A DNA stretch of 64,000 nt from Arenicola marina (taxonomy: Eukaryota > Annelida > Polychaeta > Arenicolidae). The notes under the pieces were generated by a model, which worked only from the letters and a program-made list of their open reading frames with translations, made no database searches and had not been told where the DNA came from. The position numbers and the translations under genes were made by a program. The stretch covers positions 11,601,574 to 11,665,573 of the forward strand of contig OZ025248.1 in NCBI GenBank assembly GCA_964019135.1, in the 5' to 3' direction. Below are positions 9,224 to 64,000 of the stretch, in pieces (positions within the stretch are counted from its first letter, which is position 1; each line of letters opens with the position of its first letter).

Positions 9224-9238
9224 TTATTTTCGGAATAC

Positions 9239-24422: not shown

Positions 24423-24454
24423 TTCTCAAAACCAAGCAATTATCTATCTTACAG

Positions 24455-24632
24455 ATACGCCTGGACTATTGTACAGTGTCGGCACTGCAACAAACACATG
24501 GGGTGGAAGTTCACGGCTGTAAACCAGAAGCTGAAGCCCGAAAAAATCTGGGGATTGTGTCGCACAGCGCTCCTGCCGGGCTTTCTGGGAACCGACGACG
24601 AGAATACGGACGAATGGAAGCCAGCCGTCTGA
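24455..24632 (+). pseudogene. Orphan last exon of cereblon (duplicate)
   Basis: Preceded by an intact CTTACAG acceptor, this exon reads [20 protein letters not shown], continues through FWGL-equivalent [13 protein letters not shown] and ends EWKPAV-stop. It is open and close to the true last exon at 52,897-53,074. It keeps the CxxC pair and two of the three pocket tryptophans, but no upstream CRBN exon lies within reach on this side. It is a fragment carried by the duplication rather than a gene, unless an upstream exon of another gene splices into it. Confidence 0.88.
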
Positions 24633-29500: not shown

Positions 29501-30471
29501 ACAGAAACTTATCCATAACTCTACATCACGGACCAGGCACAAAATACTTACTTATTCACAGGCTGCCTGGGAGTGAACATATATGGACGGCTCTCTTTCA
29601 TCCTCTGCATGCTGGCCGCGTCAGTCGTCCGAAACAGGGCATCTTGGAGAAGCCCAAAGCCATGCTCGCTGTGCGACATGACAGTGTAGTCAAGTTTCCG
29701 GATGGTGGGGATAGTCACCAACCCAAGTCGAATTTTATCCAGAATGACATCAAGTTGCTCCAGACGATCTCTACCACCATGTAGAATCCAGGTAATGGCA
29801 GTTTCAAGGACGAAGTCCTCACTGCAGCTCGCCAATTCGTCGTGTTTCAAAATGGCGGGCATTTCCTTAACTTCCACGTTGTCAAGGAACTTCTCGTTGC
29901 GACATAGGTCTTCGTAATGTTGCGCGATGCTTTTGAGTATTACAGTTTGCAAGTCCCTGAATTCGTATTTAATGGCCATGCATAGATCGTCAACTATGCT
30001 GTCCAATGGAACTTGATCCGCATTATAGCAAGACTTGATGTGGTCTACGCACAGGTCTATGATGTTATCTATCAGTAAATAATGAGCTGCCGGTAACAAT
30101 TGCCTTACATTATCCAAAGTTAGCTCTAATTTACCCTTGTATATCCAATGATGGAAGCTTCGGAAAACTGCCGAAGTGAGATATTCAGTTTCTTCCATCT
30201 TAATTTCCCCATCACCTGTTTCTTTCCATTTGCCTTCAAGCATTTTGTCAAAGTAGCCACTCCACGCTGTGAGAATAAACTTATGGCAGGCGAATTTGTC
30301 ATCGCCAATAGCGACACTAATGTCAGAGAAAGAAATATTCTCAAAAAGTAGAGAGAATGCACATTGAGCTGCTTGGTTGAATGTTAGAAGCATCTCCGAC
30401 TTGGGGAAAGCCATGTTGCATATCGACGCCTCAATTGAACAGTTGAAGACTGAAAAGAATTTAAGCGACAT
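26563..30471 (-). pseudogene. Double BTB-BACK/Kelch-like gene, copy A (frameshifted)
   Basis: Exons are 30,471-29,552, 28,818-27,945 and 27,452-26,563, with the same splice sites and phases as copy B. Exons 1 and 2 are fully open and each encodes one BTB-BACK pair. Exon 3, the propeller exon, lacks one base relative to copy B near 27,320 (ATTATTC against ATTACTTC), which shifts the frame and ends it at 27,270, about 61 codons into the exon. A second, in-frame 3-bp difference lies near 27,115. The expected product keeps both adaptor modules but loses almost all of the propeller. It is either a recent pseudogene or a truncated adaptor; a sequencing or assembly error is also possible. Confidence 0.85.
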
Positions 30472-33400
30472 TATAGTTCATGCGAGGTAGGCTATATGGT
30501 ACGACAATGCGATTTGCATGTAGGCCAAAGATCGAGCTGTTGCAGTCAACACAATATCAATAAGGGATCCAGGGTTGTGGTTGAGGGTGGAGGGTCTTCA
30601 AACTCCCCCCACCCCTATTTTCGTGCGAGGACGCATGTTCATATGTACGCCATCTGCCTTAACCCTTTCTGCTTTATCTCTTGTGAAACAGCAATTATAA
30701 GCTCCCCGCACGGTGGCGCTAAGCAAACTCAGCCTTTACCGTTGCTGTCGGCCGGGGGCACACTTCAAGATTCTTGAGAAACGGTCAAATCAGCTGTAAA
30801 TTCTTGCAACCTTATATTTTTCAAGAATAAATCATAAAAATAACGAGATGTGTGCATTTAATACAGCAAAAAACATCTTGCACCATTTCGAAAAAGTTAT
30901 AATTGTGACTGAACTCTTTCTTTTCATCACATGATATAGTGTGTTATTAGGCTTAGGCTGGGTCCCCGGTACTAATTTGTAAAAATGCGAGGCTCATTTT
31001 CTAGTCTGCTTCACGCTTTTTTGTAATTCACACCCGTTTGGCGCCTCTTGTTTCTCAATTTTGCATATTTTAATTAATCATGAACACTGATAAATATTCA
31101 GTACATCACCGCAGGCAGGAAAGTTAGGCTAACTGCTCTCCACCGGAAACTGCCAGTAACAGTGTGTAAACTGGCCACTTCGACGGAATCTTTACCCTGT
31201 TCGGAATTATCTGACCAGCAAAAGGAAAGCCGAAAAGAATAGTGATACAGACAGGGAGGCTGAAGCTGTCAAGAAGGTTGATGTGCTTTTAGAGACCATG
31301 ACAGGGGCGAAGTGGAGACTGACAAAGCGAAACAGCCATGCAGGCGGGCAGCAGCGAAGTTGGCTGTGAATCACAGTAAGGAAGTAGGCCTGGCGAGAGC
31401 TGGGCCTGGGCTCGAGCCAGGACTGACTTGCAAGCGACACTTCATTGCCTTCATTCTTCAAATAAGTTGCTTTTCGACTTGACCCTCGATCAAATTTTCC
31501 TCAAAGCAATTTACCCAGCGCATATCGATAAGTGCATTAATTAGGCCGGTCTTATTTAGGAAAGAGGTGAATGCCAGTTTTTGAACACATTATAACAAAG
31601 AAACCAATATTTATTTAGCAACTTTATTTAGCAACTAAATTTTTTTCTTATCTCGCCCAAATTATATGAATCAATTAATTTAATATTAATCTTGAGAATA
31701 ATTTTAATTAAAGCTCTTCGAGAAGTTGGACCCACTTAGGATCTACCAATTTTTGAACGACCGGGGGGGGGGGGGGAGGGCACGCCTGAGATGGCCTATA
31801 TTCTGCATTGAAAAATGGCATTCTTCCTCAAAAAGGGCCCCGCCCCATCAGTTCTCATTTTGTTATTATTGTGCCCCCCTCCCTAGGGTTCCTGCACACG
31901 CCACTGTGCTTATAGTTTATATTTTATACATCTGATCATGCATGTGAATGCTGCCCGACCCACGATTCACTGACAGCGCAGTCTGCGTGGACAGACGACA
32001 CTCTGGCCCTGACAGTCTCTGCAATCACACTTCACAGTCATTGACCAGACACTCTCAGTGGCGTTTTGACACATATTATTACTGAAAAACAGTTTACGTT
32101 TACTGTTTCCGCCCGCATGCAGATATATGTTTGAATAATCATAAGAACTGCATAATCCCGGAACCGGAAGCTCTAACCGGTTGTGAATACACGGGTTAAC
32201 ACTTTGCCTTATAAGGTAGTCGCGCTGATTACACAATCGGTAAAAGGCTGGTAATCCCGATCTGGTAATACGACATATTATCAGATTATAGGGAGGCATA
32301 TGGTCGAAATCGCCAGGCTATTAGAGACATTAGTAGATTGGTTGAGTGGGGGGGGGGGGTATTTTACGGGCGTAATTAAGTGGCGTGATAAGAAGGGCTC
32401 CGAAACTGGCGATGGGGTCTCGGGAGGTTGAGGAAAGTGACCACCTGTACAAAAAGGCCGTTCTTCGAATTGCACCACCCCGCCTTGACTAAATGGTCAC
32501 CCCCACCATGCACCCTTGACGATATCGTCAACGTCAGTCGCCCCCCCCCCCTCGTCCTTGACGATGTCCTGGACCATGCAGAGCCTTCACCGCTTTGGAG
32601 GCAACAAGCTGTCGGTCGAAGGCGGCGGTTGTAAGGCCCTTTTACACTATGTATGGTAAGGGGTTATACCCAGAAAGTTTGCTGGAATATACTCTCCCCA
32701 AGCAATGAAGGTTCAAAAATATAATGCATATATGTTTTATTTTAAAATCCCATTTATAAGCAAGAGTAAAGGTCTGAAAAACTTGACACTTTACCGTTAT
32801 ATACTACCTACCCCTACCAGTAGTTATACCTAAATGGATTTTATAATACAAACATACATATGAAATTATGCAGTGCAGCTCACATAACAAACAAGGCATC
32901 TATTGGAAAAATAAAGGAACGTAGCTTTAGTATACATAAATTGTGAAGGGAAACACAGCTTGTGCATATTGTGTATATATTGACATATATTACCACATAT
33001 GTATCTTCCATGAGGCTGAACTTTTTTCAAATAATATTAAATATGTAGAATTAATAAATTGCATTGGTATTTTATAATACTTAAGTTTTGTTTTGTGAAA
33101 GTTGCATTTATCGTTATAGATAAAGTGAAATTCACTTATATCTACTTCTAACATACCAGATGCGTAGAAAATAATACCAATATTAGTATCTCACACTATG
33201 ATTTCCATATCTATAATAAATGATGAGGTCAACAATATCAATGCAATAATACACCGATCAACTTAGTCATGAAATAAATTTATTAATGAAATAAATCATT
33301 ATGAATTTAATAATGAAAACAAATATATATTTATATAATAAAGCAATATACCTGGCAGCTAGTTCATCAAATGGGCCAGCATTCGGCTTGCTCCTTAATC

Positions 33401-33987
33401 TGTGACAGTTAACGTTATTGAGAATGTTCTTCCCCTTTCCCTTGTTTTTACTCTAACCTGTCGGCATGGTGCCAAGACAAGTATATATCCGGCTAAAGGG
33501 CAAAATATACATGATTGCATAAGAAGTTTGGCTACCAATTATGTATTATTGGCTAGATCTGCTTGCAAAATAGCTTTCACATTACAACATTAATTTGCTC
33601 TATGTGAAGTAGATCCAGTGTATACAGGTGTATAATATTGGAATGCCTTTAATAGCTTGTCAGCGATGCATGCTGAAGGTACGTCTCTTACACTCCCGGC
33701 TTGTCATGCAGTGATATATAACTTCGCGAGACCGTTTCCTGAGTGGGTCTACCGAGGCTAACACTGCCTTCATAACTCCAAATTAAAGCTTAAAAAATAG
33801 ATAGATGGCTGTATATCTATTCTGAAACCATTGGCAAAACATTTTAAACACTAATTGTTCAAATAATGCAAAAGTAAGTCACATTAAACACGTTTACATG
33901 CAGAAACACTTCGAAGCGCACTCACTTCAAACTGACGTTCAATGGCACACGTACTCTTGTTTACTCACCATCTAAAAGTAGGTCAAA
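30472..33987. other. Upstream region of the double-BTB gene, copy A
   Basis: No protein gene is recognised. 30,700-30,965 is a mosaic-repeat module. 31,018-31,700 is a second module also found at 34,444-35,200 and 59,480-60,170. 32,095-32,170 is a third (TTACTGTTTCCGCCCGCATG). G-runs occur near 31,764 and 32,350. A possible 51-bp minus-strand micro-exon (33,351-33,401) lies between an ACAG acceptor and a GTATAT donor and is also present in copy B; it could be a 5' exon, but support is weak. Confidence 0.45.
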
Positions 33988-36690
33988 ATGGCCAATTTCG
34001 GTCCAACTCAGTGGCGGATCAAGGTGCTGGAGGCCAGGGGCACAGGAGTTAATTATGTAATATTCTAATACTCTTGTTTGCTGCTCACATCTACTGGATT
34101 CATTGACGTTTACCGACTGCTACCATGTTTAAAGAAACCTTTATAAAGCATACGGGACTAAAACATGACTTTTGAACAAAAGGAAGGCGTGTTACTTGGA
34201 GCCGGCTGACCCAAACGACAAGACAGAAAGTGCCAGAGGTCAAGAGGCCTCAATAAGCTGGTACCGCCGCTCAAACTCATACAAGTAGCGAGCGAGCGAA
34301 GGTGGGACCGCGGAACCAGGCTAGAGGCCTCAACAAAATCACCATTCGCCAGGTGTCGCCATATCATCCACTTGGAGTGAGTAATCGTCGCATATATTTG
34401 GCGCATGCGCATTCATATTCTCCGCGGATTGTGTGCGGATCAAGATGCGTTTTTGTAATTCACACCCGGTTGGCGCTTCCGGTTCCACAATTTTGCATAT
34501 TGTAATTAATCATGAACACTGATGAATATTCAGTACGTCGCCGCAGGCAGGGAAGTTAGGCCAACTTCTCTCCACCGGAAACTGTCAGTGACAGTGTGTA
34601 AACTGGCCACTTCGAAGGAACCTTCACCCTGTCCGGAATTATCTGACCAGCAACAGGAGAACCGAAAGGGAAAGTGATAGAGACAGTGTAGCTGAAGGTG
34701 TCAACAAGGTTAATGTGGTTTTAGAGACCATGACAGGGGCAAAGCGGAGACTGACAAAGCGAGACAGCCAGGCGGGCAGCGGAGTTGGCTGTGAATCACA
34801 GCCACAAAGTAGCAAGAGCTGGGCCTGGGCTCGAGCCAGGACTGGCTTGCAAGGGACACTTCAATATACACACTTCTTCATTCTTCAATTAAGTTGTTTT
34901 TGGACTTTTCGACCTTCAATCAAAATTGCCCAAAGCAGGTTACCCAGCTGACGTTGTTAGTAGTATGCATTGGCTTACTGGGGGGGGGGGCGGTCAGTGT
35001 AGGGGTGTGCATGGTGATGTGCCGTCATACTTTTGTTTATCAGCGACATATCAATATGTGCATTAATTACGCCGGTCTTAATCAGGAAAGAAGGGGTTAA
35101 TGCCAGTTTTTGAACACAATATAACAAAGAATAAACCAATGTTTATTTAGCAACTTTATTTATCAACTAAAATGTTATCTTGTCGTAATTCACCCAAATT
35201 ATATCAATCAACTAATTTAATAATAATCTTGAGAACAATTTAAATTAAATCCGTAGGGGTCTGGAAGGGGGCGTCCAGTGTCCAGTCTCAATTTTTCAAA
35301 ATTTTCAAAATTTGCAGTGTCAAATGTCAAAAGCGTCGCTTTTTTCAGTGTCGTGCCACTAACCGTGTCGATGGGTTTTTTTTCAAGTCCTCGGTGTCGG
35401 AATTTGAGGCTCAATGCCAAACGTCGATTTTTTAAATATGCCTGTGTCGCGTGTCGCCATTCAACCCTTCCAGACCCTTGGCTATATATGCAGCAACGAG
35501 TGGATCTAGCAAATACCGGACAAAAAACGGGGGGGGGGGCGGGGGGATTCATTGCTATGACGTAACAGGCACAATTTCAGCGGACACTCAGGTCTTTCCA
35601 GGAATCTGCTGCTCGCTGATACCTTGACTGTATCACCTACCTTCACTTTCATGTGAAACTGAATTTTTCAGATAAGAAAACGTTCTTTAAACCGCAGAGA
35701 AGACGTTTTGAAATACGAGCCTAAAAGTATTACACCTCCGTTTACGTTTTAACGTATTTATATGGTAATAAAAACGTTATGATTTATTATAACCAAATAA
35801 GAACCAAAAAAAGTTATAAAAAGGTTCTAAAAACGTGTTAGCTGGCAAACCCCTGGTGATGCAAATTTCCGAAAACAACGCACCGAAACGTTTACGTTTA
35901 CTGTTTCCGCCCGCATACAGATATCTGTTTGAATATTCATAAGAAACTGCATAATCACTTAACCGGAAGCCCCAACCGGGTGTGAATTACAAAAACGCGA
36001 TCAAGATAAGCCTTGTGAGGGTGGTGCGCAACAAAGCACGGAAAAAGCGTTAGGAGTGCTTTCTGACATATCTGATTCCTAATCACAGGAGATATTCGAC
36101 CATAGGTCGAGGACGAAAATCTATAAGTAAATTTGGAAGCTGTATTAATGGCCACGTTACGAGTCGTCAGGGCCAATGTCCGCTAAAGGGCCTTATAGGG
36201 GCAATTTGGGCTAAATGCTGCCTTCAACAGGCAGTGTGGGCACTGTAGGCGGAGCTTAAATGAACATCCAGTTTGAAGCCAAGAGCGCTTTTCTTGAAGT
36301 GTTATTAACGGTACTTTCGTATCTTTTATTTATTATGTCTGGGTGACGTCATTTGATGGTCACGACAATATTCGCGATGGCTTCTATTTTGCTAAATATA
36401 CCTACTTATGAACTCATGGGTGAACTCATGAACTTATGGGTGATGTTAGCTATTGACAAATTAGCTAAACATCAAGCTGGCTCAATCTTTCTTAGGAGAA
36501 TGTTACCTATGACGTTGACGCACACTTATCACCCTCGCCATAAGGTGTCTTTGAAGACGACGTGTAACGTAAAATACACCGGAAGCCACCCTACCGTATA
36601 ATAAATGATAGTCCTGCGCAAGTGCGAAACAATCGTGCATGTTGTGGTAAAAGCATGAATTTGGCACACATGTTCGAAATTCCACCATGG
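33988..36690. repeat. Mosaic dispersed-repeat cluster
   Basis: 34,170-34,443 repeats modules of the window start (GGCGTGTTACTTGGAGCCGG, then GCCAGAGGTCAAGAGGCCTC), with an 80-bp insert not present at 1-690. 34,444-35,250 matches 31,018-31,700. 35,890-35,970 and 35,999-36,088 are further shared modules. The modules occur in different orders at different sites. No gene was found. Confidence 0.65.
35258..35476. mobile_element. MITE with GGTCTGGAAGGG inverted ends
   Basis: GGTCTGGAAGGG at 35,258-35,269 is the exact complement of CCCTTCCAGACC at 35,465-35,476. The 219-bp interior is full of GTGTCG, CAGTGTC and AATTTTTCAAA words. A partial relative starts at about 52,471 (GGTCTGGAAGGG) inside the last CRBN intron. 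Non-coding. Confidence 0.65.
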
Positions 36691-37020
36691 CTAGCCGATG
36701 CCGCTGGCCCAGGGCATCAGCCGAGGCCCCTAAACCAGGCCTAGCCCTGGCCGCTAGTCCAGGCTGCTGGCTCTGGGCGCTACCCCCGTAAGCTACCCTA
36801 GGTTGCTAGCCTAGGCCGCTAGCGCAGGTTTACCCCAGTATGCTAACCCAGGCCGCTAGCCAGGGCGCCAACCCAGGGGGCTAGCCAGGCCATCAATCTA
36901 GGCCTTGCCAAGGCCGCTACCTCAGGCCGCTAGCCCAGGCCCCTGGCTCAGGCAGCTTTGCCCAGGCTGCTAAGCCAGGCCGCTAGCTTAAACCGTTAGC
37001 CCAAGCTCCTAGCCCAGGCT
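36690..37020. repeat. ~17-bp degenerate minisatellite (GGCCGCTAGCCCA)
   Basis: Degenerate tandem units of the form CAGGCCGCTAGCCCAGG cover about 330 bp and are GC-rich. The array passes directly into the next one. Confidence 0.85.
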
Positions 37021-37860
37021 GATCGAGGAAGCATTGTGTTAGGGGGGCGGGGGCATGGGGTTGACCAAGGGAGTATTGTCTTGGGGGGCAGGGGGCATGG
37101 GGCTGACCGAGGGAGTATTGTCATGGGGGACGGGGGGGGGATTGGGCTGACCGAGGGAGTATTGTCTCGGGGGAAAGGGGGCATGGGGCTGATCGAGGGA
37201 GTATTGTCATGGGGGGCAGGGGACATGGGGCTGATCGAGGAAGTATTTTCATGTGGAGGGAGGCGGCATGGGGCTGACCGAGGGCGTATTGCCATGATTG
37301 AGGAGGAGGAATGGGCTGATCAAGGGAGTTGTCTCGGGGGAGGGGGGGGGGGAGTGGGAATGGGGCTGACCGAAGGAGTATTGTCTCGAGGGGGGGGGGG
37401 GGTGTATTGTCTTGGGGATGGGGCTGACCGAGGAAGTATTGTCATGAGGAGGGAGGAGGCGTCGGGCTGACCGAGGGAGTATTGTCATGGAGAGAGAGGG
37501 CATGGGGCTGACCCAGGGAGTATAGCCTTAGGGTGTGTGGGGCGGGATGAAGCATGGAGCTGATTGTCAGGAGTATTGTTATGGGGAAAGGGGCATAGGG
37601 CTGACTGAGGGAGTATTGCCATGAGGGAGGAAGGGCGTGGGGCTGATTGAGGGAGCATAGCTTTAGGGGGCGGGGGGGGGGGTATGAGGCATGGGGCTGA
37701 TCGAGGGAGTATTGTCATGAAGGGGACAGGGTGATTGTCAAAGGGGGAGGGGAGTGGCGGTAGAAAGCATTGTGTGTGTGTGGGAGGTGGGGGGGCACGG
37801 TCTGTGAGGGAATTGTGGGGATTTGCCCGGGGTGGGGGGGGGGGCAGTTGTCCGGGGATA
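37020..37860. repeat. G-rich ~60-bp minisatellite
   Basis: Units contain CATGGGGCTGACCGAGGGAG followed by TATTGTC and a G-rich spacer of variable length with runs of 8-13 G. Two further units appear near 37,995-38,080. The minus-strand frames (PPHDNTPSISPMPP and similar) are translations of the repeat. Confidence 0.85.
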
Positions 37861-49387: not shown

Positions 49388-52300
49388 ATACTTGGGGCAT
49401 GACTTCGGTCAAACATTGGCTAAGATTGGCACGACGGCTGAAATCCTGGCCTTCAAAGAGGAAAGCGACGACAGCACCGGCATCACGACGGTCAGGGTCA
49501 AGGCCATCGGAAGACAACGCTTCAAAATCAAAGAATCCAGAAGACAGGGCGACGGGTACGCATCCTTCTGCTGTCTTTACCTAGTTTACCATGACGATCC
49601 CACTCGTTGAGTATACATTTGTTAGTAATATAAATTCCCCCTACATTATCTTGTCTCATCTGTTTTTTCTTTACTTACGAATGTGGTTCCAACTGTAGTT
49701 CGAAAAATATTTGGAAGTCACGCCGTTAAGCGAACCGCAGTCAACTTCGTCGCTTTCGGTTTATAATATATAGTGTAGCTCGTAATTAAGAGGCATGCAT
49801 CATTTTTGGCAAGGATTAATCTTTACCTATAACCTTTTTTGTGTAAAACATTTTGTGGTTAGACACCAAACTTTATGAACGTCATTGCTTGCTTCACGTA
49901 GACATTCGTTTTAATTTTTTCGTATTTTTTTCAGTGTATCATCCAAATTGTTCATTTTGTTTCTTTTATGGCGTATTTATGTTTTTCGAGTGTAGCAGTA
50001 TAATAGTATGGTGACTATGTTTGTGATATAGGACGCTCATAGCTCAAATCCGGATCTTAGCCGAGCGAGAACTTCCGCCAGCGCTTGAGGGCGCCACGCC
50101 CGCCTCTCATCGGAAGTTGATAGCGTATCGCGAGGAATCCAGCTTTCCGAATGCTTCACCAATAGGAGCAGATGTCATGCAGCGGCGTCAACCCAACAAG
50201 AGACCCAAAGTGAGATTTCAGAATTTATGTTTATCTGGCCCAGTGAGGCCTCAATTGGCTCCGGGGGAGTCTCCGTAGCTCAAATCCGGATCTTAGTCGA
50301 CCATTACCGAGGCCTCTAATTCATCAAAGTGAAACGACGGTGTCGGGTACAGTACCAGTAGCACAGTAAATGTGGTGCACTAGATGACAAACTAAGGGAT
50401 ACATTTTGATGGGGGTGGGGGGCATACTTAACACGGGCCTCTAGTGAAAAAACAGAGGCAGATGATGCTCTCAGTGATAACAGATGCTGTACTAAATGAG
50501 TGGTCGTTATTATCTTTCAGCTGGATCGACTGTCAAGCGCTAACTTCACCTGGTGGCCACCCTGGGTATATAAGCAATATTACGCGGTGAGTGGCCGTAA
50601 CCTACCTGTTAGTATGTAAATGAGCGGTGCACTCTGTATTCTATTCCTTGTGAAGAAGAGACCAAATTCATCATTATCGCTAATCTATGGCCATGCCATG
50701 TATCGCCTCCGTGCAGGGTGCAATAACTTTGTTCACATTGACTACGAGACAGCCTCAGACAGGACCCAACAACAGGGCATCGATATGACGATTGCGACAA
50801 TTAGCTTTGCTAGTCTCGAATAATCGCTTAGCCGTAAGCGTAGGTGACGCAAAATCAATCGACACCTAAATTACAACGAAATCAGTTGTAAATCCATCGC
50901 CTTACGCGGAAATACGGAAGCCAACCGGTGATATTGCAGATACTTCATACGCCTTTGCCACATTGCAGCACATCGGTTTACCTTTAAACTTACACACACC
51001 TGTTTACCTTTAAACTTACATCTCTTTACCTTTAAATTTACGCACATATCTTTACCTTTAACCTTAGCCACACCTCTTTACCTGTAAATTTACTCACTTA
51101 TCTTTACCTTTAAACTTACCCACACCTGTTTACCTGTGAACTTACTCACATATCTTTACCTTTAAACTTACCCATATCTCTTTACTTTTAAACTTACCCA
51201 TATCTCTTTACCTTTAAACTTACTCACATCGCTTTACGTCTAAGCTTACCCATCTGGATATCTTTACCTTTAAACTTACCCACATCTGTTTATCCTTAAA
51301 CTTACTCACATATCTTTACCTCTAAACTTACCCAGATATCTTTACCTTTAAACTTACTTACATCTGTTTACCTTTAAACTTACATCTCTTTATCTCTAAA
51401 CTTATCTACATCTCTTACATGTAAACTTACCCAGATCTCTTTACCTGTAAACTTACTCACATCTCGTTAACTCTAAACTTACCCACATCCCTTTACCTTC
51501 AAACTTACCAACATCTGTTTGCCTGTAAACTTACCAACATCTGTTTGCCTGTAAACTTACCCCGCTGTCGTCACTCCACAGCACCTCTGTATGCGGCGAG
51601 TGGTTGACGAACTGCAGAGCTGGAACGACACGCTGAAGCAGGAGAGCATGCCACGTGACCCCATCGAGTTCTCGTTCTGGGTGACGAGCAATCTCCCGTT
51701 GGACGACGGCTTGAAGCTCCATCTGTTAAAGATGGACTGCGCCGTCCAACGTTTGCGATGTGAACTAAGTCTCATGCAGAAGGTTAGCGATTGGGATAGT
51801 TAGTCATAGATGGAACTCTATTAAATTTTATTTGATTTATTTTCTTATATCGCTGACTTAAATATAACTAATTTTGTCACATACCGTTAATATTTAGATC
51901 TGACGAAATCGCGACGTTTGTGGCAACACGTTAGATATCACATATAGGATGGCTACGAGTACTTATTTTCATTTACTGAATTTGCTTCTTTTTTTCTCCA
52001 TAATAATGTTACAGTACAAAAAATATATATATTTCAGATCCATAATCCATAAAGCGACCTTATAGGATGTATGACTTTGTTTGTTAAGCTATATTAACCC
52101 AGCGCTGCCATGTGATATCTCATTGTAGTGGTCAGTCCTGTGTTGCAAGGAATGCGAGCTGCTGATCGCCAACAAGAAGGACGTCTTCAGCATGGCCCTG
52201 GAGGGTCCTATGGGTGCTTACGTCAACCCCGGCGGCCACGTGCATGAGACATTCACCGTCTACAAGGCACAGGGTCTCAACCTCATAGACAGAGCTCGCA

Positions 52301-53074
52301 CAGAGAACAGCTGGTTCCCTGGGTACGTCGCGGGCTCACCCGTACACCAGCCCATACACAGATTCTGACCCCAGAATGCATTGATGTTGAATTTATGTGT
52401 TTTAATTAAATAATGTAAACCAACGCCCGGCAACCTATATTTTGTGAAATAAATTATTATAGCTATAGGAAGTGGTCTGGAAGGGTTTTTGACTGTAAAA
52501 GTGTGTCGGAATTTGAATGCTAGGATGTCGGGTGTCAATTTTGCGCAAACGGCATTTCGCGTTTCGCCATTTAAGACTATATGACCCGATCTGAGCGATT
52601 ATTGGGCAAGAATCTGTAATTGGTCACCTCTTTTGCCAAGACTTGTTTTCCTGATAATAATTATGTGTGTTACATGGTCACCCGAATGGCCTTCATGGCG
52701 TTCGGCTTAATCGAGTGAACTCTTCACTGAGCGAATGGCCGTGCATGCATTCTCGGGTTTACGCAGCACCCATGTTATCCATGGTGAAAAAAGAAAACCT
52801 ACCAATCATGTTTGAAACTAGCCGCAGATAACCCCGACATTACATCACGGGTACAAGTATAAGCTTCTCAAAACCAAGCAACTATCTACCTTACAGATAC
52901 GCCTGGACTATTGTACAGTGTCGGCACTGCAACCAACACATGGGGTGGAAGTTCACGGCTGTGAACAAGAAGCTAAAGCCCGATAAATTCTGGGGATTGT
53001 GTCGCACAGCGCTCCTGCCGGGCCTTCAGCGAACCGAGGACGGGAATACGGACGAATGGAAGCCAGCCGTCTGA
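49388..53074 (+). CDS. CRBN: Cereblon, substrate receptor of CRL4 ubiquitin ligase (N-terminus not found)
   Basis: Exons 49,388-49,555, 50,032-50,209, 50,521-50,586, 51,582-51,782, 52,129-52,322 and 52,897-53,074 join in phase with GT-AG introns. Exon 1 of this set has the Lon-domain run [10 protein letters not shown] and [13 protein letters not shown]. The next gives [20 protein letters not shown]. The third has the CRBN-type [16 protein letters not shown]. The fourth ends in [14 protein letters not shown], within the DDB1-binding helical bundle. The last two form the CULT domain: CCKEC and CRHC supply the four zinc cysteines, and [13 protein letters not shown] and MGWKF supply the three pocket tryptophans, followed by [12 protein letters not shown]. 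Human CRBN has 442 residues and about 290 are covered here. Start and N-terminal exons are missing, and the acceptor of the first listed exon is weak. CRBN presents substrates to CUL4-DDB1; its pocket binds C-terminal cyclic imides and thalidomide-type drugs. Confidence 0.95.
50032..50209 (+). CDS. CRBN: CRBN exon (end of Lon domain)
   Basis: AG acceptor at 50,030-50,031. The first G completes the glycine codon begun by GG at the end of the previous exon. The 59 further codons end at a GTGAGA donor. The N-terminal part aligns with human [20 protein letters not shown]; the later part ([20 protein letters not shown]) is poorly conserved. A 21-bp word from its start recurs in the following intron. 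Confidence 0.9.
50210..50520 (+). other. CRBN intron with a 21-bp echo of the previous exon
   Basis: Bases 50,276-50,296 repeat exactly bases 50,040-50,060 of the preceding exon (AGCTCAAATCCGGATCTTAG plus one base). The surrounding DNA is different, so it is a short templated copy rather than a whole-exon duplication. It has no acceptor of its own. Confidence 0.8.
50975..51565. repeat. 26-bp minisatellite in a CRBN intron
   Basis: About 21 units have the form CTTTACCTTTAAACTTACCC followed by ACATCT. The array ends within 20 bp of the acceptor of the exon at 51,582, so its pyrimidine-rich strand lies over the region where branch point and polypyrimidine tract are expected. CTTTAAACTTAC also contains the complement of a GTAAGTTT donor in each unit on the other strand. 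Confidence 0.93.
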
Positions 53075-53411
53075 TTGGTGTGTGACGCTTTGAAACTGAC
53101 GTATTTGATTGGGTAACGTGTATTGGTTGCAAACAGACGCATCATATTGGTGAACATGTTGGTGAAAATTGGTCACCATGTGGCGGTTGGCAACAGGCAT
53201 GTCTGATTGGTCAACGTGTGATGTCTAAAAACAGGCTCTTCTGTTCGGCCAACGTGTGACGAATGGAACCGGTGCATCTGATTGGTCAGCGGGTGAGTTG
53301 GAAACAGACGCGCCTGATTGGTCAGGGGATGAGTTGAAAACAGGCGTCTCCGCTTGGTCAAGGTTTGAATGTTGGCCACAGACGAGTCTAATTGGTCAAC
53401 ATTTGACTGTT
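53072..53411 (+). promoter_or_regulatory. Array of inverted CCAAT boxes, copy B
   Basis: ATTGG cores occur at about 53,074, 53,108, 53,122, 53,146, 53,168, 53,205, 53,281, 53,316 and 53,390, several in full CTGATTGGTCA context (NF-Y type). The first overlaps the CRBN stop codon. The tandem unit GGAAACAGACGCGCCTGATT is about 35 bp. It could be a bidirectional or downstream promoter, or a neutral minisatellite. Confidence 0.5.
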
Positions 53412-55018
53412 GGAAACAGGCGTATGTACATGGTAACATATTTTCGACAAGAAACGAACAAAGTTACTGAGCAGCGAGTGTTGGTGATCAGTGTGATATT
53501 TGTCATCAGTCCGGCCCTTCTATGAGACGAGCTTGTTATTGAAGACACTACTTAGCTGGAGCTCTCGTACTGTTGAAAGACTCTTTGTGTGGACTAAACC
53601 TGCTTGGCATCTTATTCGATGTCGTGGCATTTGCTGTGATTGGATATTGAAAACGCGCACATGGGTGGAAATAAATCTATGAGGTTCATGTGATTAAACA
53701 GCTTCATAATATGGATGGTTATGATGTTGACTATTGTTTTATCCCAAAATTTAGCATGTAATGTTTATCTTGTAGATACAGATACAGAAGGCGACACCAT
53801 ACAGTTTTATAATTTTGGTAAAATTTATTTAAGCAGGTTATCGACACAAGCAATGACAGAAAAACAATTGTTTAAACAATATACAAAACAGTCCAATTTA
53901 ATAAAGAGCGGAGACTTATATCGAAATCGAGTGTTATTTGTAAACGTTTGAACTCCAAGAACTATTCCTAACCTTGCTATTGATCAGCATTTCGGTTGGA
54001 TTGTGCCTGATGGTCTGAACATGACTAGCGAATAATCCGTTCCCTCGGTCTGCACCTTAAGGATATGGAAAGGTGAACTATTGCGACAGGACATCAATTG
54101 GGGCGTTTAGGCATGTAGGGAAAGTAGATGAAAATCATCAATCTACTTAAATTTGTAACGTTTCCGCTATCAATCTATGGCTATATATTCTTAGGGGAAC
54201 ACACATGACGTAATTGCTCTTGCAATATATGATATAACAGTCTTGAATTTAATGGTTAGTCTTCCATAAAATTAGCGCGGTCGTTTTACTGAACGCATGT
54301 TTCAGCACCAAATATAAACAGCATATCGATATATATCAGCAAGTCGATAAATATATACCACATAGCTTGTCAGATAACGCATACCCTAAGCCGTTACGCA
54401 TCCACCCGAGCTTTCATGGTCGTCTTTTGGTTTATATATGTATATTTACAACCAAAGTAAGCAATATATATGGTCACCAGTTGAATTATTGAATATATGC
54501 TATGGGTTAAACCAGCCTCAGTGACATAGCGAACTTCATTGACGAATAACTATTGATGGATATATATATTCCCACAAATTACTGATCATAGCACGTCTCA
54601 TTGTTATAGTCACACATTTGGTTATCATTCGTCTGTAAATAACGTACATTAATGACAATAAATTTCACAACTATTCCACCAATCTACATACTTCAAAATC
54701 GAAAACAAAACGTAATAGTCTAAAAGTACATTCCTGAAAATTATCATGTTGTGGGCCATTAACTATATTATATATTTCTTAATCTTCATGTAACCTGTTC
54801 TGAAGCTGGATGTCTCCATTACAGTTCATGTGGCGACACCGTGGTAAGACTGATGTCTGTTGTTCTGTTCTGCCGGTCAATACGATCGTCGTTCGTGCGG
54901 TTAATAACCAAGCATCAATGCTAACTGAAGCTTCGTCTTAGAGAACACATTTCTGCTACACATGGAGTTTCCTGTTCATAGCCTACAGGTCTCCGGTTTC
55001 ATTAGTGGCGTCAGTTAT
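53412..55018. other. Convergent intergenic region, copy B
   Basis: Counterpart of 25,041-26,562. It is AT-rich, with no gene recognised. It separates the converging ends of CRBN and the double-BTB gene by about 2 kb. Confidence 0.5.
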
Positions 55019-58000
55019 TTATTGTCCGACAAAAAGCCATGAAATACAGTACATTGCACCGGAAGTCCCATTTGCTGTCTGCCACGTGGCCGGCAGTTTA
55101 ACCTGGGAGCCGCTGGTCACATTCTCCGCTCTGGTCGCTATGTTAGTCGGCATAGCAGCGCCGTTGTCACCCACAAAGACAACATCCTTGCCGATCAGCC
55201 ACATTCTGGGGGCGTGAGACAGACACTGCTGCTCTCTCTGTTCCCAGCGCCCGTTCGTCTTCTCCGACGTGATGTAGGTACAAGCCGCGCGCACGCCGCT
55301 CATGGTCACCAAGGCAACGCCTTGGCCTTTCCACTCAATAACCCGTATAGACGATACGGGCTGAGCAAAGGCCGGACATGGCGTCACGGCGGTTATGCCA
55401 CACGAAGGAATGTCCATTTCTACGACGGCGTGCTTGCGAACCGCGCCCGTGATTTGGTAGGAGACAAGGAGCAGCAATGTGTTGTGGACAATGCAGCCTC
55501 CGTGCTGCACGATGGGCACGGCCGACGTCACAGTCGCGACATCTGCCAGGCGCTTCTGTATGTCAGAAAACTCTAATTCCGCAGCCAATTCCCAAATTCT
55601 AGATGGCATATGAAGTCTAGATATCACCAGTTTCTGTGTACTATTCAGGTGTGTCACACAGTACAGGAACCCATTATGGCCCCCTAGAATGCAAGCCAAT
55701 TGCCCGTCTGGTGATTCTTTGGTCTGGGTCACCTTCCAAGTGCCACCATCAACTTCATATTCATACAGCCGAGAAGAAGTAATTGCAAACAACTTACCTG
55801 CTACCTCATATGGTACATAACTTAACAAGAATTTGTTTACATCCACCCACGTAGCATTGTCGTCGTATGTGTCCAGAACACCTACCACATTGGACTGAGA
55901 GTGGATCAGCACCTGTAACATCAAGTCAAAATGCGTTATGCATGTAGATTCTGTATAAATATAAATCCATTACATTAGTATTTTCATGTTGAGTACCGAT
56001 CCTAATATAGACATGGGAAAATGTAGCAAATTAGCAAAGTATAAACTTTCGACCTCATCCTGATATCACCACTGAAACTGCCAACACGGAATATGGTATT
56101 CATTACTTGTAAACGGTATACTAACACCCACCTTACACACTTTTATATCACATAATATGCACAATAATGCTACATACGCAATATTATGTCAGGAAAGTTT
56201 CGCATTGTAGCCCTGTTAGATAATGCAGTTGAGGTGCTCAATAGTGTCACAATAGTGAGAGGCCTATTTCTGGGTCGAAGTTGCAAGGATGTATTTGCCT
56301 CTCGTCCCTACCTCACCAAACAACTCCACACAAGGTAAACCATGAGTAGAATTACTATCGTACCTATATCAATATACACAGCTGAGTGAGCTTACCTTTC
56401 TCCAGACAGCTTTCCTTGCCATAAATATGGTTGGATGTTCTGTCTTCAGGTACTCTCCCCCCTCTGGATCCTGCATCCGTGCCATGGCTCTCATGAGGAT
56501 TGCGCTGCTTTCTGCGGACTGCGAGATAACCTCGAAATCGACATTTCTGTTTATAGTGGCCACTTGGACGTGCCATATTCGCACCAGCTCAAGCAGTTGC
56601 CCTAGATGTGTCATTCGCTGCTTATCGTGACGCAGCCAGGCGAGCGCTGCCAGGAAGACCACGTCTTCACTGCTGACGGTCAACTCCTCACTGCACAGCA
56701 ACGAGAGTAGGTCATCCAACGGTAGCAGGGACACGAACTCCTCACTCTGGGAGACCTTTTCGAAGTTGCGAAGGATGCCATTGAAGGCCATGTTGGTGAT
56801 TGGCTCGAGCTGTTGCTTCTTTGCCTGGCAATATAAACCGATGAGGTCTCCTCCTCGTATAGTATCGCAGTACGAAGCCAGCGTCTGACTGCAATAGGAC
56901 TCCAGCAACGTCACTGCGCTGTTTATTTGAAGGTATCTTGCAGACGACAGCAGGTCGCATATGTTTTCTGGCGTAATGGGCAGTTCTCCCTTGTACATCC
57001 AATCTAGAAGAAAGCTGAACGCCTCCGCCGTTATACCCTCTCCCTGGACATGAACATCTAGTTCTGGGGACTTGTCCGACACAAGCATCCTGTGGAAGTA
57101 ACCGCTCCAACCAACGAGCGCCCGTATGTGACAGGGAAAGGAGTCTTGCGCACCCACTTTCACAATGACATCTGAAGGAGCATTTCGCAACCTTTTGGAG
57201 ATCTTTCTCAAGTTTTCTGCGAATAACGCTGGCTCAGACACCGGCATAGATGTAACGGGCGCACTCGCATTTCTGGAAAAAAACAAAAAAATAGGTCACT
57301 CACCTTCTTTTCCATGTGGCATATACCCTATATACTTTCACACCGCTCCTGGAGATGGGTGGGTGGGTGGTGGGGGGGGGGGGGGTTCACTTGTCTTTAG
57401 CCCAATATTAGAAGGGGGGTACACCTCGTATATATTTCAATAATGACTATTTAGGTCCCAGGCTAGACTCAATCAACACGACAATAAACCCAGTGAAATT
57501 TACTTTCTCATGACCCATTCACTCCCACGATTATTTCGACAACTGTTTCCGAAGTTTTACGAAGGTAAACTGGCTCACAGCCGTCGTGCTCCATTATTGT
57601 GACATCTCTAATGGCCCGATTTGACAAAAGACAGGGTTGGAAATAACAGGCAGTCCGGGACGGGTAATTTTGTGCCGATCGGGATCGTCTTAAAAGTTTC
57701 CAGTCCGGTGCTCGTTAACTATCTTGGCCCATTGGTATTGTTATCTTAGCTTATTTAGCTGCACTTCTTCTCGGCAATCACAAATCGAATTTCAGACACA
57801 TTTGAAACCGTGTCTGACGCCAAGATCTTGATGTAGGCCTATTGTTGTTGGATAAACAGGACGGGACTTTTGGGCTAGGCCAGCAACTATATCAGAATTT
57901 ACCAGTCCGGCTGTCTAACAACTTTGTGGATGAATTTCCAACCCTGCGATAAGGGGATAAAGATGCACAGAAACCTATCCATAACTCTACATCACGGACC

Positions 58001-58937
58001 AGGCACAAAATACTTACTTATTCACAGCCTGCCTGGGAGTGAACATATATGGACGGCTCTCTTTCATCCTCTGCATGCTGGCCGGGTCAGTCGTCCGAAA
58101 CAGGGCATCTTGGAGAAGCCCAAATCCATGCTCGCTGTGCGACATGACAGTGTAGTCAAGTTTCCGGATGGTGGGGATAGTCACCAACCCAAGTCGAATT
58201 TTATCCAGAATGACATCAAGCTGCTCCAGACGATCTCTACCACGATGTAACATCCAGATCATGGCACTTTCAAGGACGAAGTCCTCACTGCAGCTCGCCA
58301 ATTCGTCGTGTTTCAAAATGGCGGCCATTTCCTTAACTTCCACGTTGTCAAGGAACTTCTCGTTGCGACATAGGTCTTCGTAATGTTGCGCGATGCTTTT
58401 GAGTATTACAGTTTGCAAGTCCCTGAATTCGTATTTAATGGCCATGCATAGATCGTCAACTATGCTGTCCAATGGAACTTGATCCGCATTGTAGCACGAC
58501 TTGATGTGGTCTACGCACAGGTCTATGATGTAATCTATCAGTAAATAATGAGCTGCCGGTAACATTTGCCTTGCATTATCCAAAGTTAGCTCCAATTTAC
58601 CCTTGTATATCCAACGATGGATGCTTCGGAAAACTGTCGAAGTGAGATATTCAGTTTCTTCCATCTTAATTTCCCCATCACCTGTTTCTTTCCATTTGCC
58701 GTCAAGCATTTTGTCAAAGTAGCCACTCCACGCTGTGAGAATAAACTTATGGCAGGCGAATTTGTCATCGCCAATAGCGACACTAATGTCAGAGGAAGAA
58801 ATGTTCTCAAAAAGTAGAGAGAATGCACATTCAGCTGCTTGGTTGAATGTTAGAAGCATCTCCGACTTGGGGAAAGCCATGTTGCATATCGACGCCTCAA
58901 TTGAACAGTTGAAGACTGAAAAGAATTTAAGCGACAT
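55019..58937 (-). CDS. Tandem BTB-BACK-BTB-BACK protein with Kelch-like propeller (intact copy)
   Basis: Exons are 58,937-58,018 (306 codons plus AA), 57,272-56,396 (A plus 292 codons) and 55,912-55,019 (297 codons and stop). Donors are GTAAGT and GTAAGC, acceptors CCAG and ACAG. The first junction makes AA+A (Lys) and the second is phase 0, so all three join into one 896-residue protein. Exon 1: BTB (SDISVAIGDDKFACHKFILT) and BACK (SCSEDFVLESAMIWML). Exon 2: a second BTB (SDVIVKVGAQDSFPCHIRAL) and BACK (SSEDVVFLAALAWLRHDKQR). Exon 3: about 295 residues, propeller-like but with weak Kelch repeats (VPYEVAGKLFAITSSRLYEY, LACILGGHNGFLYCV). The family recruits substrates to CUL3 ubiquitin ligase. 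The start may be Met1 or Met20 (MAFPKSEM). Two overlapping genes are the alternative, but exon 2 lacks its own clear promoter or start. Confidence 0.85.
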
Positions 58938-61900
58938 TATAGTTCATGCGAGGTAGGCTATATGGTACGACAATGCACACGACTTGCATCTACGCCAAAG
59001 AGCTGTTGCAGTCAACACAATATCAATAACGGATCCAGGGTTGGGGTTGGGGGTGGAGAGTCCTCAAACTCCCCCCACCCCTGATTTCGTGCGAGGACGC
59101 ATGTTCATATGTACGCCATCTGCCTTAACCTTTTCTGCTTTATCTCTTGTGAAACAGCAATTAAGCTCCCCGCACGGTGGCGCTACGCAAACTCAGGCTT
59201 TACCGCTGCTGTCGGCTGGGGGCACACTTCAAGATTCTTGAGAAACGGTCAAATCAGCTGTAATTTCTTGCAACCTTATATTTTTAAAGAATAAATCATA
59301 AAAATAACGAGCTGTGTGCATTTAATACAGCAAAAAACATCTTGCACCATTTCGAAAAAGTTATAATTGTGACTGAACTCTTTCTTTTCATCACATGATA
59401 TAGTGTGTTATTAGGCTTAGGTTGGGTCCCCGGTACTAATTTGTAAAAATGCGAGGCTCATTTTCTAGTCTGCTTCACGCTTTTTTGTAATTCACACCCG
59501 GTTGGCGCCTCTTGTTCCTCAATTTTGCATATTTTAATTAATCATGAACACTGATAAATATTCAGTACATCGCCGCAGGCAGGAAAGTTAGGCTAACTGC
59601 TCTCCACCGGAAACTGTCAGTAACAGTGTGTAAACTGGCCACTTCGACGGAATCTCTACCCTGTCCGGAATTATCTGACCAGCAAAAGGAAAGCCGAAAA
59701 GAAAAGTGATACAGACAGTGAGGCTGAAGCTGTCAAGAAGGTTGATGTGCTTTTAGAGACCATGACAGGGGCGAAGTGGAGACTGACAAAGCGAAACAGC
59801 CATTCAGGCCGGCAGCAGCGGAGTTGGCTGTGAATCACAGTAAAGATGTAGGCCTAGCGAGGGCTGGGCCTGGGCTCGAGCCAGGACTGGCTTGCAAGCG
59901 ACACTTCATTGCCTTCATTCTTCAAATAAGTTGCTTTTCGACTTGATCCTCGATCAAATTTTCCTCAAAGCAATTTACCCAGCGCATATCGATATGTGCA
60001 TTAATTAGGCCGGTCTTATTTAGGAAAGAGGTGAATGCCAGTTTTTGAACACATTATAACAAAGAAACCAATGTTTATTTAGCAACTAAAATGTTATCTT
60101 ATCTCGCCTAAATTATATGAATCAATTAATTTATCATTAATCTTGAGAACAATTTTAATTAAAGGTCTTCGAGAAGTTGGCCCCACTTAGGATCGACCAA
60201 TTTTTGAACGACCGGGGGGGGGGGGGGGGGGTCCACGCCTGAGATGGCCTATATTCTGCATTCCTCAAAAAGGGCCCCGCCCCATCAGTTGTCATTTTGT
60301 TATTATTGTGCCCCCCTCCCAAGGGTTCCTGCACACGCCACTGTGCTTATGTTTTACATTTTATACATCTGATCATGCATGTGAATGCTGCCCGACCCAC
60401 GATTCACTGACAGCGCAGTCTGCGTGGACAGACGACACTCTGGCTCTGGCAGTCTCTGCAATCACACTTCACAGTCATTGACCACACACACTCACTCAGT
60501 CAGTGGCGTTTTGACACATATTATTACTGAAAAACGTTTACTGTTTCCGCCCGCATGCAGATATATGTTTGAATAATCATAAGAACTGCATAATCCCGGA
60601 ACCGGAAGCGCTAACCGGGTGTGAATACACGGGTTAACACTTTGCCGTATAAGGAAGTCGCGCTGATTACACAATCGGTAAAAGGCTGGTAATACCTATC
60701 TGGTAATACGACATATTATCAGATTATAGGGAGGCATATGGTCGAAATCGCCAGGCTATTAGAGACCTTAATTGATTGATTGAGTTTGGGGGGGGGGGGG
60801 GGTCTTTTACGGGCGTAATTAAGTGGCGTGATAAGAAGGGCTCTGAAACTAGCGATGGGGTCTCGGGAGGTTGAGGAAAGTGACCACCTGTTCAGAAAGG
60901 CCGTTCTTCGAATTGCACCACCCCCGCCTTGACTAAATGGTCAGCCCCACCATGCACCCTTGACGATATCGTCATCGTCCGTCGCCCCCCCCCCCCCCTC
61001 GTCCTTGAAGATGTCCTGGACCATGCAGAGCCTTCACCGCTTTGGAAGCCACAAGCTGTCGGTCGAAGGTGGCGGTTGTAAGGCCCTTTTACACTATGTA
61101 TTGTAAGGGGTTATACCCAGTAAGTTTGCTGGAATATCCTCTTCCCAAGCAATAAAGGCTCAAAAACATAATGCATATATGTTTTATTTTAAAATCCCAT
61201 TTATAAGCAAGAGTAAAGGTCTGAAAAAATTGACACTTTACCGTTATATACTACCTAGCCCTACCAGTAGTTATACTTAAATGGATTTTATAATACAAAC
61301 ATACATATGAACTTATGCAGTGCAGCTCACATAGCAAACAAGGCATCTATTGGAAAAATAAACCAACGTAGATTTGGTATACATAAATTGTGAAGGGAAA
61401 CACAGCTTGTATATATTGACATATATTACCACATATGTATCTTCCATGAGGCTGAATTTTTTTCAAATAATATTAAATATGTAGAATTAATAAATTGCAT
61501 TGGTATTTTATAATACTTAAGTTTTGTTTTGTGAAAGTTGCATTTATCGTTATAGATAAAGTGAAGTTCACTTATATCTACTTCTAACATACCAGATGCG
61601 TAGAAATTAATACCAATATTAGTATCTCACACTATAATTTCCATATCTAGAATAAATGATGAGGTCAACAATATCAATACAATAATATACCGATAAACTT
61701 AGTCATGAAATAAATTTATTAATGAAATAAATTATTATGAATTTATTAATGAAAACAAATATATATGTATATAATAAAGCAATATACCTGGCAGCTAGTT
61801 CATCAAATAGGCCAGCATTCGGCTTGCTCCTTAATCTGTGACAGTTAACGTTATTGAGAATGTTCTTCCCCTTTCCCTTGTCTTTACTCTAACCTGTCGG

Positions 61901-62407
61901 CATGGTGCCAAGACAAGTATATCCGGCTAAAGTGCAAAATATACATGATTGCATAAGAAGTTTGGCTACCATTATGTATACTTGGCTAGATCTGCCTGCA
62001 AAATAGCTTTCACATTACAACATTAATTTGCTCTATGTGAAGTAGATGCAGTGTATACAGGAGTATAATATTGGAATGCCTTTAATAGCTTGTAAAGTCA
62101 GCGATGCTGAGGGTACGTCTCTTACACTCCCGGCTTGTCATGCAGTGATATGTAGTTTCGCGAGACCGTTTCCTGAGTGGGTCTCCAGAGGCACTGCCTT
62201 CATAACTCCAAATTAAAGCTTAGAAATCGCTGTATATCTATTCTGAAACCATTGGCAAAACATTTTAAACACTAATTGTTCAAATAATGCAAAAGTCAGT
62301 TACCTTAAACTGGTTTACATGCAGAAACACTTCGAAGCGCACTCACTTCAAGCTGACGTTCAATGGCACACTCTTGTTTACTCACCATCTAAAAGTAGGT
62401 CAAAATC
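58938..62407. other. Upstream region of the double-BTB gene, copy B
   Basis: Counterpart of 30,472-33,987, with mosaic-repeat modules at 59,163-59,425, 59,480-60,170 and 60,535-60,610, and G-runs near 60,217 and 60,789. No protein gene is recognised. Promoter elements could not be pinpointed. Confidence 0.5.
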
Positions 62408-62610: not shown

Positions 62611-64000
62611 ATCAGGCACTGGCCTGTAATATACGGCCCCAAGCCCACGCCGTGACGCTCAGCTAAGGCTTGTGGACCCAATGTCCACAACGGCCTCCGG
62701 GCTGTGGTTTCTTTATTAATTCACATGTTATATCACATGAGGTGTCCTACGAAAGGTCTACATCACGACAAGACAGGTAGATCTGTTGCAATATAAGGAG
62801 ACATCATTTACATGGCAAAATTAGTTGGCGAAGTGGGTCCCTGTCGGGCACTGGCCTGAAATATACGGCCCCAAGCCCACGCCGTGACGCTCAGCTAAGG
62901 CTTGTGGACCCAATGTCCACAACGGGCTCCGGGCTGTGGTTTCTTTATTAATTCACATCTTATATCACATGAGGTGTCATACGAAAGGTCTACATCCCGA
63001 CAAGACCAGTACATCTTTTAAAATATAAGGAGACATCATTTACATGGCTAAATTAGTTGGCGAAGTGGGTCCCTGTCGGGCACTGGCTTGAAATATGCGG
63101 CCCAAAGCCCACGCCGTGACGCTCAGCTAAGGCTTGTGGACCCAATGTCCACAACGGGCTCCGGGCTGTGGTTTCTTTAATAATTCACATATTATATCAC
63201 ATGAGGTGTCATACGAAAGGTCTACATCCCGACAAGACAGGTAGATCTTTTAAAATATAAGGAGACATCATTTACATGGCTAAATTAGTTATCGAAGTGG
63301 GTCCCTGTCGGGCACTGGCCTGAAATATACGGCCCAAAGCCCACGCCGTGACGCTCAGCTAAGGCTTGTGGACCCAATGTCCACAACGGGCTCCGGGCTG
63401 TGGTTTCTTTATTAATTCACATATTATATCAAATGAGGTGTCAGACGAAAGGTCTACATCCCGACAAGACCAGTACATCTTTTAAAATATAAGGAGACAT
63501 CATTTACATGGCTAAATTAGTTGGTGAAGTGGGTCCCTGTCGGGCACTGGCCTGAAATATACGGTATCTAGTCAACTCGACCCAAAACCAACTCGACCCA
63601 CGACATGCTCGACCCATCACCGTTCCAAGCCCACGCAGTGACACTCATTTTAGGCTTGTGGACCCAATGTCCACAACCGGCTCCGGGCTGTGGTTTCTTT
63701 ATTAATTCACATCTTATATCACATGAGGTGTCATACGAAAGGTCTACATCCCGACAAGACAGGTAGATCTTTTAAAATATAAGGAGACATCATTTACATG
63801 GCTAAATTAGTTGGCAAAGTGGGTCCCTGTCGGGCACTGGCCTGAAATATACGGCCCCAAGCCCACGCCGTGACACTCAGCTAAGGCTTGTGGACCCAAT
63901 GTCCACAACGGGCTCCGGGCTGTGGTTTCTTTATTAATTCACATCTTATATCACATGAGGTGTCATACGAAAGGTCTACATCCCAACAAGACCAGTACAT
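62611..64000 (+). repeat. 232-bp satellite array, at least six units, open at window end
   Basis: GGCACTGG recurs at 62,615, 62,847, 63,079, 63,311 and 63,543, exactly 232 bp apart, and then at 63,833 (290 bp). The long unit carries a 58-bp insertion at about 63,566-63,624 composed of ACTCGACCCA-like words. Units share GCTTGTGGACCCAATGTCCA and ATAAGGAGACATCATTTACA. Two variants alternate (ACAGGTAGATCT against ACCAGTACATCT), hinting at a higher-order dimer. Confidence 0.95.

Follow-up and report, generated by a model that had tools for sequence, protein, structure and literature searches.

A 64,000-nucleotide stretch of the Arenicola marina genome (assembly GCA_964019135.1, contig OZ025248.1, positions 11,601,574 to 11,665,573; hereafter the window) carries on its reverse strand three open exons, of which the first two each encode a BTB domain followed by a BACK domain, while the third encodes a further C-terminal domain. 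This raises the question whether these exons form one gene, and what a chain with two BTB-BACK modules might do. We consider it probable that the locus is one gene of a large tandem family of likely CUL3 adaptors with an internally duplicated BTB-BACK module, in which module 1 (M1) would dock CUL3, module 2 (M2) would serve as a CUL3-blind partner, and the C-terminal domain would bind the substrate.

Two GT-AG introns, in phase 2 and phase 0, respectively, separate the three exons (Table 1), which join in frame. The exon ends are exactly those given in the original prediction, which had been made from the window letters. Exon 1 ends at a phase 2 donor, AATAA/GTAAGT (the slash marks the splice junction); exon 2 lies between the acceptor TTTTTCCAG/A and the phase 0 donor AAAG/GTAAGC; and exon 3 runs from the acceptor TTACAG/GTG to a TAA stop codon. 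The joined frame is open over 2691 nucleotides including the stop, and encodes 896 residues from the ATG at 58937 or 877 residues from the ATG at 58880. The second of these starts is likelier, because a 3' splice-like sequence, TTCTTTTCAG, lies between the two ATGs and because the relatives L064 (C6) and L081 (C19) have a protein start, MAFS, at the point matching ATG 58880 (C and L numbers are our handles for contigs and loci). Thus, the open join behind the 896-residue protein proposed originally was retained, while its start probably has to be moved. All five array copies on C1 share TTCTTTTCAG unchanged, and it may be the 3' splice site of an upstream exon in the 5' untranslated region (5'UTR). 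The donor of intron 1, GTAAGT, itself creates an in-frame TAA that closes the unspliced exon 1 frame, and retention of this intron would give a module-1-only protein, a candidate isoform. Pfam places both domains in each of the first two exons well over its cut-off (Table 1). The two modules of the window gene are ∼30% identical to each other, and for both the closest PDB sequence match was the KLHL3 BTB-BACK structure 4hxi (4.1e-14 and 5.9e-19).

Paralogous loci give clues to whether the exons belong together. Splice sites were ranked by a simple splice-site score in a sample of these loci. The best donor after module 1 was in phase 2, one base before the end of the frame, in 12 of 15 loci (1.5-7.0 bits; four of the 15 are near-copies on C1), and the remaining three had a donor at -8 in phase 1, a weak one at -7 in phase 2, or none. 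After module 2, the best donor was in phase 0 in 22 of 23 loci, some of them weak and that of L028 doubtfully placed; L073 had none. Before module 2, the top-scoring acceptor was in phase 2 in 14 of 21 scorable loci (one of them a tie), as it is in the window gene. A phase 2 acceptor ranked second best in three more loci, and in the other four the acceptor was in another phase or absent. When a stricter cut was applied, the exon 3 acceptor passed in phase 0 in four of nine genes (L064, L036, L041 and L078) and four genes were left with none; in the window gene the genuine-looking acceptor TTACAG/GTG failed this cut and an upstream AG in phase 1 passed. An in-frame exon 3 start of the form Q/V, followed by L or I, was common to 19 of the 20 exon 3 frames of the C1 and C6 arrays. 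Between the predicted acceptor (the open-frame start in L029) and the BTB2 core, L021, L029, L078 and L082 have no ATG, so that exon 2 cannot start a protein of its own there. A single ATG, located 2-6 residues from the BTB2 core, was present in L028, L079 and L080.

The arrangement is widespread in the host genome (867 Mb). Merging the module loci from lists of matches gave counts that are lower bounds: at least 283 distinct BTB-BACK module loci, and at least 90 same-strand neighbour pairs less than 7 kb apart (irrespective of module type) on C1, C3, C6, C11, C14 and C19, at least 80 of which are less than 3 kb apart. At least 51 pairs also show a module-1 match followed by a module-2 match. 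Among the matches listed, pairing outside the array regions was found for 0 of 33 loci, and 70 loci within the widely drawn array regions were unpaired, although partners may exist beyond those matches. Intron phases and module order mostly recur among subfamilies that are ∼30-40% identical. This recurrence in diverged paralogues, together with the five tandem copies on C1, indicates that the architecture is more than chance.

On C1, five copies that retain the three exons in their order lie between 11.548 and 11.660 Mb, and an incomplete copy is found near 11.846 Mb. Of the five, A, C and D have an open frame in every exon; B is frameshifted in exon 3, and exon 1 of E is interrupted by two stops. 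Copy B is located in the window itself, 28.5 kb from the first gene; this second copy, 94.5% identical over 8.5 kb, was absent from the original prediction, as was the size of the family. Both gene copies of the window are carried by a segmental tandem duplication (24423-33989 and 52865-62406) with pieces that are ∼88-95% identical. The C6 regions at 34.32-34.39 and 34.41-34.48 Mb contain near-identical genes in the same order, ∼83-86 kb apart, which represents a block duplication, either real or due to assembly.

To place the modules relative to each other, a maximum-likelihood tree was built from 45 modules of the same genome, comprising 11 first modules, 18 second modules and 16 ordinary KLHL modules. 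In this tree, the second modules were set on one side of a branch with 99/98 support; the corresponding values were 100/100 for the ordinary modules and 87/70 for the first modules. The C1, C6:34, C19 and C3/C11/C14/C6 lineages were present in both the M1 and the M2 sets. Since first, second and ordinary modules separate in the tree, the simplest reading is a single old internal duplication of the BTB-BACK exon, before the arrays split. Recurring intron phases, paired arrays and the module tree together lend good support, at the sequence level, to the proposal of one gene with two non-identical modules. In the C6 array, module 1 (4 sequences) had a pooled ratio of non-synonymous to synonymous substitution rates (dN/dS) of 0.41, module 2 (11 sequences) one of 0.37 and exon 3 (14 sequences) one of 0.49. 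Along exon 3 of the C6:34 array this ratio was near-neutral (0.94) in the first 30 alignment columns, 0.24-0.60 in the middle and 0.80 in the last segment; the first 30 columns may thus be a variable recognition segment. Within the C1 array, dN/dS reflects few changes and a mixed ancestry between copies.

Two readings of the locus would dispense with a functional double-module gene. In one of them, exon 1 is a BTB-BACK-only gene ending at the TAA within its donor, and exons 2 and 3 form a second gene with a BTB-BACK module plus the C-terminal domain. The clean closure of exon 1 fits this reading, as do the ATG well ahead of BTB2 in most C6 second-module exons examined (and in L060, L073 and L024) and the seven of 21 scored second modules in which a phase 2 acceptor is not good (four) or only second best (three); moreover, the exon joins are predicted here from genomic sequence. 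However, a TAA is inevitable with any phase 2 GTAAG donor and hence is no independent stop signal. The prevailing phase 2 acceptor before module 2, the seven loci with no ATG or only a closely placed one before the BTB2 core, and the at least 90 same-strand module pairs argue further against two genes, which we regard as very improbable. The other reading holds that the copies are mostly non-functional recent or assembly duplicates, with the architecture as a by-product. While a broken exon in two of the five C1 copies and the near-identity among some C6 copies are in line with this, frames, order and phases are kept in subfamilies as diverged as those described above, and the pooled dN/dS values of the C6 array are below 0.5 for each of the three exons. 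We therefore consider this reading extremely improbable.

CUL3 adaptors touch CUL3 with a phi-x-E motif that lies in their alpha3-beta4 loop, as described for M83-S84-E85 of KLHL3 (PMC3616122) and also given in PMC10564622 and PMC11074293; the KLHL3 substitutions A77E, M78V and E85A severely disrupted CUL3 binding (PMC3616122). Alignment to KLHL3 showed this motif in 11/11 first modules (as W, F or C-x-E) and 15/16 ordinary modules, but in 0/18 second modules. The position of KLHL3 M78 was occupied by M in all 11 first modules and in one of the 18 second modules, the others having V (8), R (6), L (2) or C (1). In addition, the CUL3-contact loop of the second BTB is either rewritten or carries a long low-complexity insert; the insert was seen in seven of these 18 (L078, L024, L028, L079, L080, L082 and L029, from sister arrays on C3, C11, C14 and C6). 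Since module 1 keeps the motif and module 2 has lost it, we infer that module 1 docks CUL3 and that module 2 is a CUL3-blind partner, within or between chains. The same pattern favours, by inference, the earlier suggestion that adaptor and regulatory roles are divided between the modules. An intramolecular BTB dimer, also suggested in the original prediction, may be one form of the partnership. A structure model of exon 2 built from four window sequences had a predicted local distance difference test score (pLDDT) of 56.4, with values below 50 over residues 30-79 and hardly any strands. Foldseek placed BTB-BACK chains of KLHL11, KBTBD2 and A55 on top, eight of them at E≤0.001 with root-mean-square deviations of 11-14 Å. 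The model agrees with membership of the BTB-BACK family and is uninformative on any interface.

Two other ways of working are conceivable for the chain. The original prediction had offered a chain that binds two CUL3 molecules, one on each module, which would amount to a bivalent ligase acting without dimerisation. The presence of both BTB and BACK in each module would allow for this, and LZTR1 possibly touches CUL3 via both of its modules (PMC8154269). Nevertheless, the absence of phi-x-E from module 2 in all 18 sampled loci, with the long insert in that same loop in seven, disfavours such a chain and makes it improbable. A stronger contender, which we judge possible though somewhat short of even, is that module 1 dimerises between chains while module 2 positions the C-terminal domain or binds another partner. 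By analogy, LZTR1 is reported to need its BTB1-BACK part for dimerisation (PMC8154269), and the KLHL22 dimer forms by way of alpha1 and the swapping of strand beta1 (PMC11074293).

The third exon is less readily placed. It had no Pfam match up to E=1, which bears out the earlier remark that it lacks clear canonical Kelch repeats. A profile of the exon 3 family found no match among PDB sequences up to E=1, reached a probability of 1.2% against the C-termini of ten ordinary genes (presumed to be Kelch), and received no support in a comparison with the local NHL-like regions. Among ten exon 3 relatives, Pfam models of the KIB1-4 propeller (0.022) and the ATRN-LZTR1 propeller (0.044) matched one member each, and the commonest weak match was a zinc-finger model (5/10, best 0.1). 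As zinc-finger matches were commoner than propeller ones, the propeller matches of the relatives are at noise level. An AF2 model from two sequences was beta-rich with a pLDDT of 43.7. None of the 50 Foldseek matches shown for it had E≤0.001 and the query TM-scores were 0.13-0.34; nearly all 50 are, as far as we recognise them, propeller proteins. A propeller fold is thereby only suggested, and the propeller that the original prediction had placed in this exon is not visible in the sequence, given the lack of a Pfam or PDB profile match, the noise-level relatives and the poor model. The third exons of L078 (C3), L079 (C11) and L029 (C6) encode another domain: all three matched the NHL model PF01436 (best 8.1e-04; 15.5 bits for the first member versus a cut-off of 20), and weak PDB profile matches were obtained, for instance to TRIM71 (0.014) and TRIM2 (0.05). 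This NHL-like third exon in three sister-array genes implies that C-terminal domains of two or more kinds occur on the double-module stem.

In the adaptor reading that we favour, the gene would go back to a single old internal duplication of a BTB-BACK exon. Module 1, having kept phi-x-E, would be the likely site of CUL3 docking. Module 2, with BTB and BACK kept and the contact lost, would most likely be CUL3-blind, and would pair with module 1 of its own chain or scaffold chains. The C-terminal domain, not recognisably Kelch and NHL-like in the sampled sister arrays, would most likely bind the substrate. Several observations weigh against this reading. At the position of the KLHL3 A77 contact, five of the 11 first modules have R, five have S and one has K, as compared to A in 9 of the 16 ordinary ones, and the 3-box has diverged in both modules; CUL3 binding by module 1 is therefore not assured. 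One of the 11 first modules has cysteine as its phi residue, and the L found at M78 in two second modules also occurs in 4 of the 16 ordinary modules. As the sequences compared for the motif are related, the counts describe a consistent state that may reflect one or a few loss events. Furthermore, the joined transcript is a prediction from the genome, the branch of the first modules has a support of just 87/70, and the fold of exon 3 is a candidate propeller only. Among the five C1 copies, one has a broken exon 3 and another a broken exon 1. Less favourable values were also seen: dN/dS was 0.74-0.98 in two segments of module 1 in the C6 array, and the corresponding ratio of proportions (pN/pS) for exon 3 of the C1 array was 0.86-1.00 for copy A versus the other four (0.21 for C versus D).

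A more specific version of this adaptor, which we put forward tentatively and consider rather unlikely, is a single-chain asymmetric adaptor of CUL3-based ubiquitin ligases (CRL3) in which modules 1 and 2 form a pseudo-dimer with one CUL3 and one substrate domain. About 100 or more array genes with exchangeable, propeller-like C-termini would then diversify a recognition repertoire. Working CRL3 ligases are understood to be dimers that have two CUL3 arms; how and why this dimer is needed has been called elusive (PMC11074293). A single-chain pseudo-dimer, if true, would escape the symmetry of two CUL3 molecules and two substrates of known CRL3s. The fusion of two modules with the CUL3 contact removed from one of them, which is consistent in the sampled genes, would be a natural experiment on the dimer requirement. 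Likely ubiquitin adaptors have also expanded greatly in this family, with differing C-terminal domains on one double-module stem.

Two-BTB chains are known in other contexts, with a GTPase in RhoBTB or with ankyrin and RCC1 domains in IBtk, which carries two BTBs. RhoBTB, with its two BTB domains, can assemble CUL3 ligases (PMC4931677) and IBtk is a CUL3 receptor (PMC4447969). Unlike the window gene, neither is known to combine a pair of BTB-BACK modules with another domain behind them. LZTR1 shares with the window gene two BTB-BACK modules in one chain plus a further domain. Its Kelch propeller, however, is N-terminal, a position described as unique among BTB-Kelch proteins (PMC8154269), whereas the window gene has its extra domain at the C-terminus and belongs to a large family. 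No LZTR1-like N-terminal propeller was seen in exon 1, where BTB1 begins ∼22 residues after the likely start and only BTB and BACK scored above the cut-off, an upstream coding exon being possible. KLHL and KBTBD proteins resemble the window gene in having BTB followed by BACK, a phi-x-E motif (here in module 1 only), a C-terminal domain after BACK and, with KLHL3, the best PDB match. They differ in having a single module and Kelch repeats, as opposed to two modules (if the exons are joined), a second module lacking phi-x-E, and a C-terminus unrecognised as Kelch. A 2005 survey found BTB to be typically single copy per protein and BTB-BACK-Kelch to be a family of its own (PMC1257465). Some modules matched the KLHL33 model PF21536 weakly (best 4.6e-05, 23.7 bits), all under the curated 27-bit cut-off. 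In its working, the window gene would be closest to a KLHL adaptor, although it misses two defining KLHL features and does not have the LZTR1 order. In the literature searched, which was partly echinoderm-directed and included few subscription papers, no report was found of BTB-BACK-BTB-BACK-propeller proteins or of such an expansion.

Table 1. Positions in the window of the double-module gene, its parts and its second copy.
Feature	Position	Strand	Basis
Exon 1 coding part, module 1 (BTB1-BACK1), start MAFPKSE	58018-58880	-	Pfam BTB and BACK in an open frame; L064 and L081 begin with MAFS at this point
BTB1, residues 22-128	58497-58817	-	PF00651, E=1.7e-18
W63-K64-E65, phi-x-E CUL3-contact motif of module 1	58686-58694	-	Alignment to KLHL3 M83-S84-E85
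BACK1, residues 146-238	58167-58445	-	PF07707, E=3.7e-14
Intron 1, phase 2	57273-58017	-	Splice sites; phase 2 recurs in paralogues
Exon 2, module 2 (BTB2-BACK2)	56396-57272	-	Open frame; Pfam
BTB2	56882-57187	-	PF00651, E=2.7e-18
K355-S356-P357, phi-x-E position in module 2, not conserved	57065-57073	-	Alignment to KLHL3
BACK2	56543-56842	-	PF07707, E=6.2e-21
Intron 2, phase 0	55913-56395	-	Splice sites; recurs in paralogues
Exon 3, C-terminal domain, 297 residues plus stop; candidate very diverged beta-propeller	55019-55912	-	C6 homologues at 26-31% identity; without Pfam match; beta-rich low-confidence model
TTCTTTTCAG, candidate 3' splice site of an upstream 5'UTR exon	58916-58925	-	Same in five array copies
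Second tandem gene copy, B (exon 1 30414-29552, exon 2 28818-27945, exon 3 27452-26563)	26563-30414	-	94.5% over 8.5 kb; frameshift in exon 3

The window, which has a G+C content of ∼0.44, gave nothing in tRNA and Rfam scans. In the host genome, a search for the sea-urchin sperm family Bindin yielded 0 candidates, a result that does not establish its absence. Inverted arms at 8901-12730 and 20149-22589, with a longest aligned piece of 2,444 bp at 94.9%, combine a 176-bp satellite, present in 19 and 11 copies, with a 46-bp minisatellite. They enclose ∼7.4 kb with a reverse-transcriptase-like open reading frame (ORF) at 16700-17128, as judged by eye, and the whole resembles a foldback-type element. 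A Gypsy-like pol ORF on the reverse strand at 3188-4504 has, also by eye, the look of reverse transcriptase and RNase H. Further tandem arrays lie at 62615-64000, 50969-51562 and 37017-37719, with units of 232, 26 and 42 bp, respectively.

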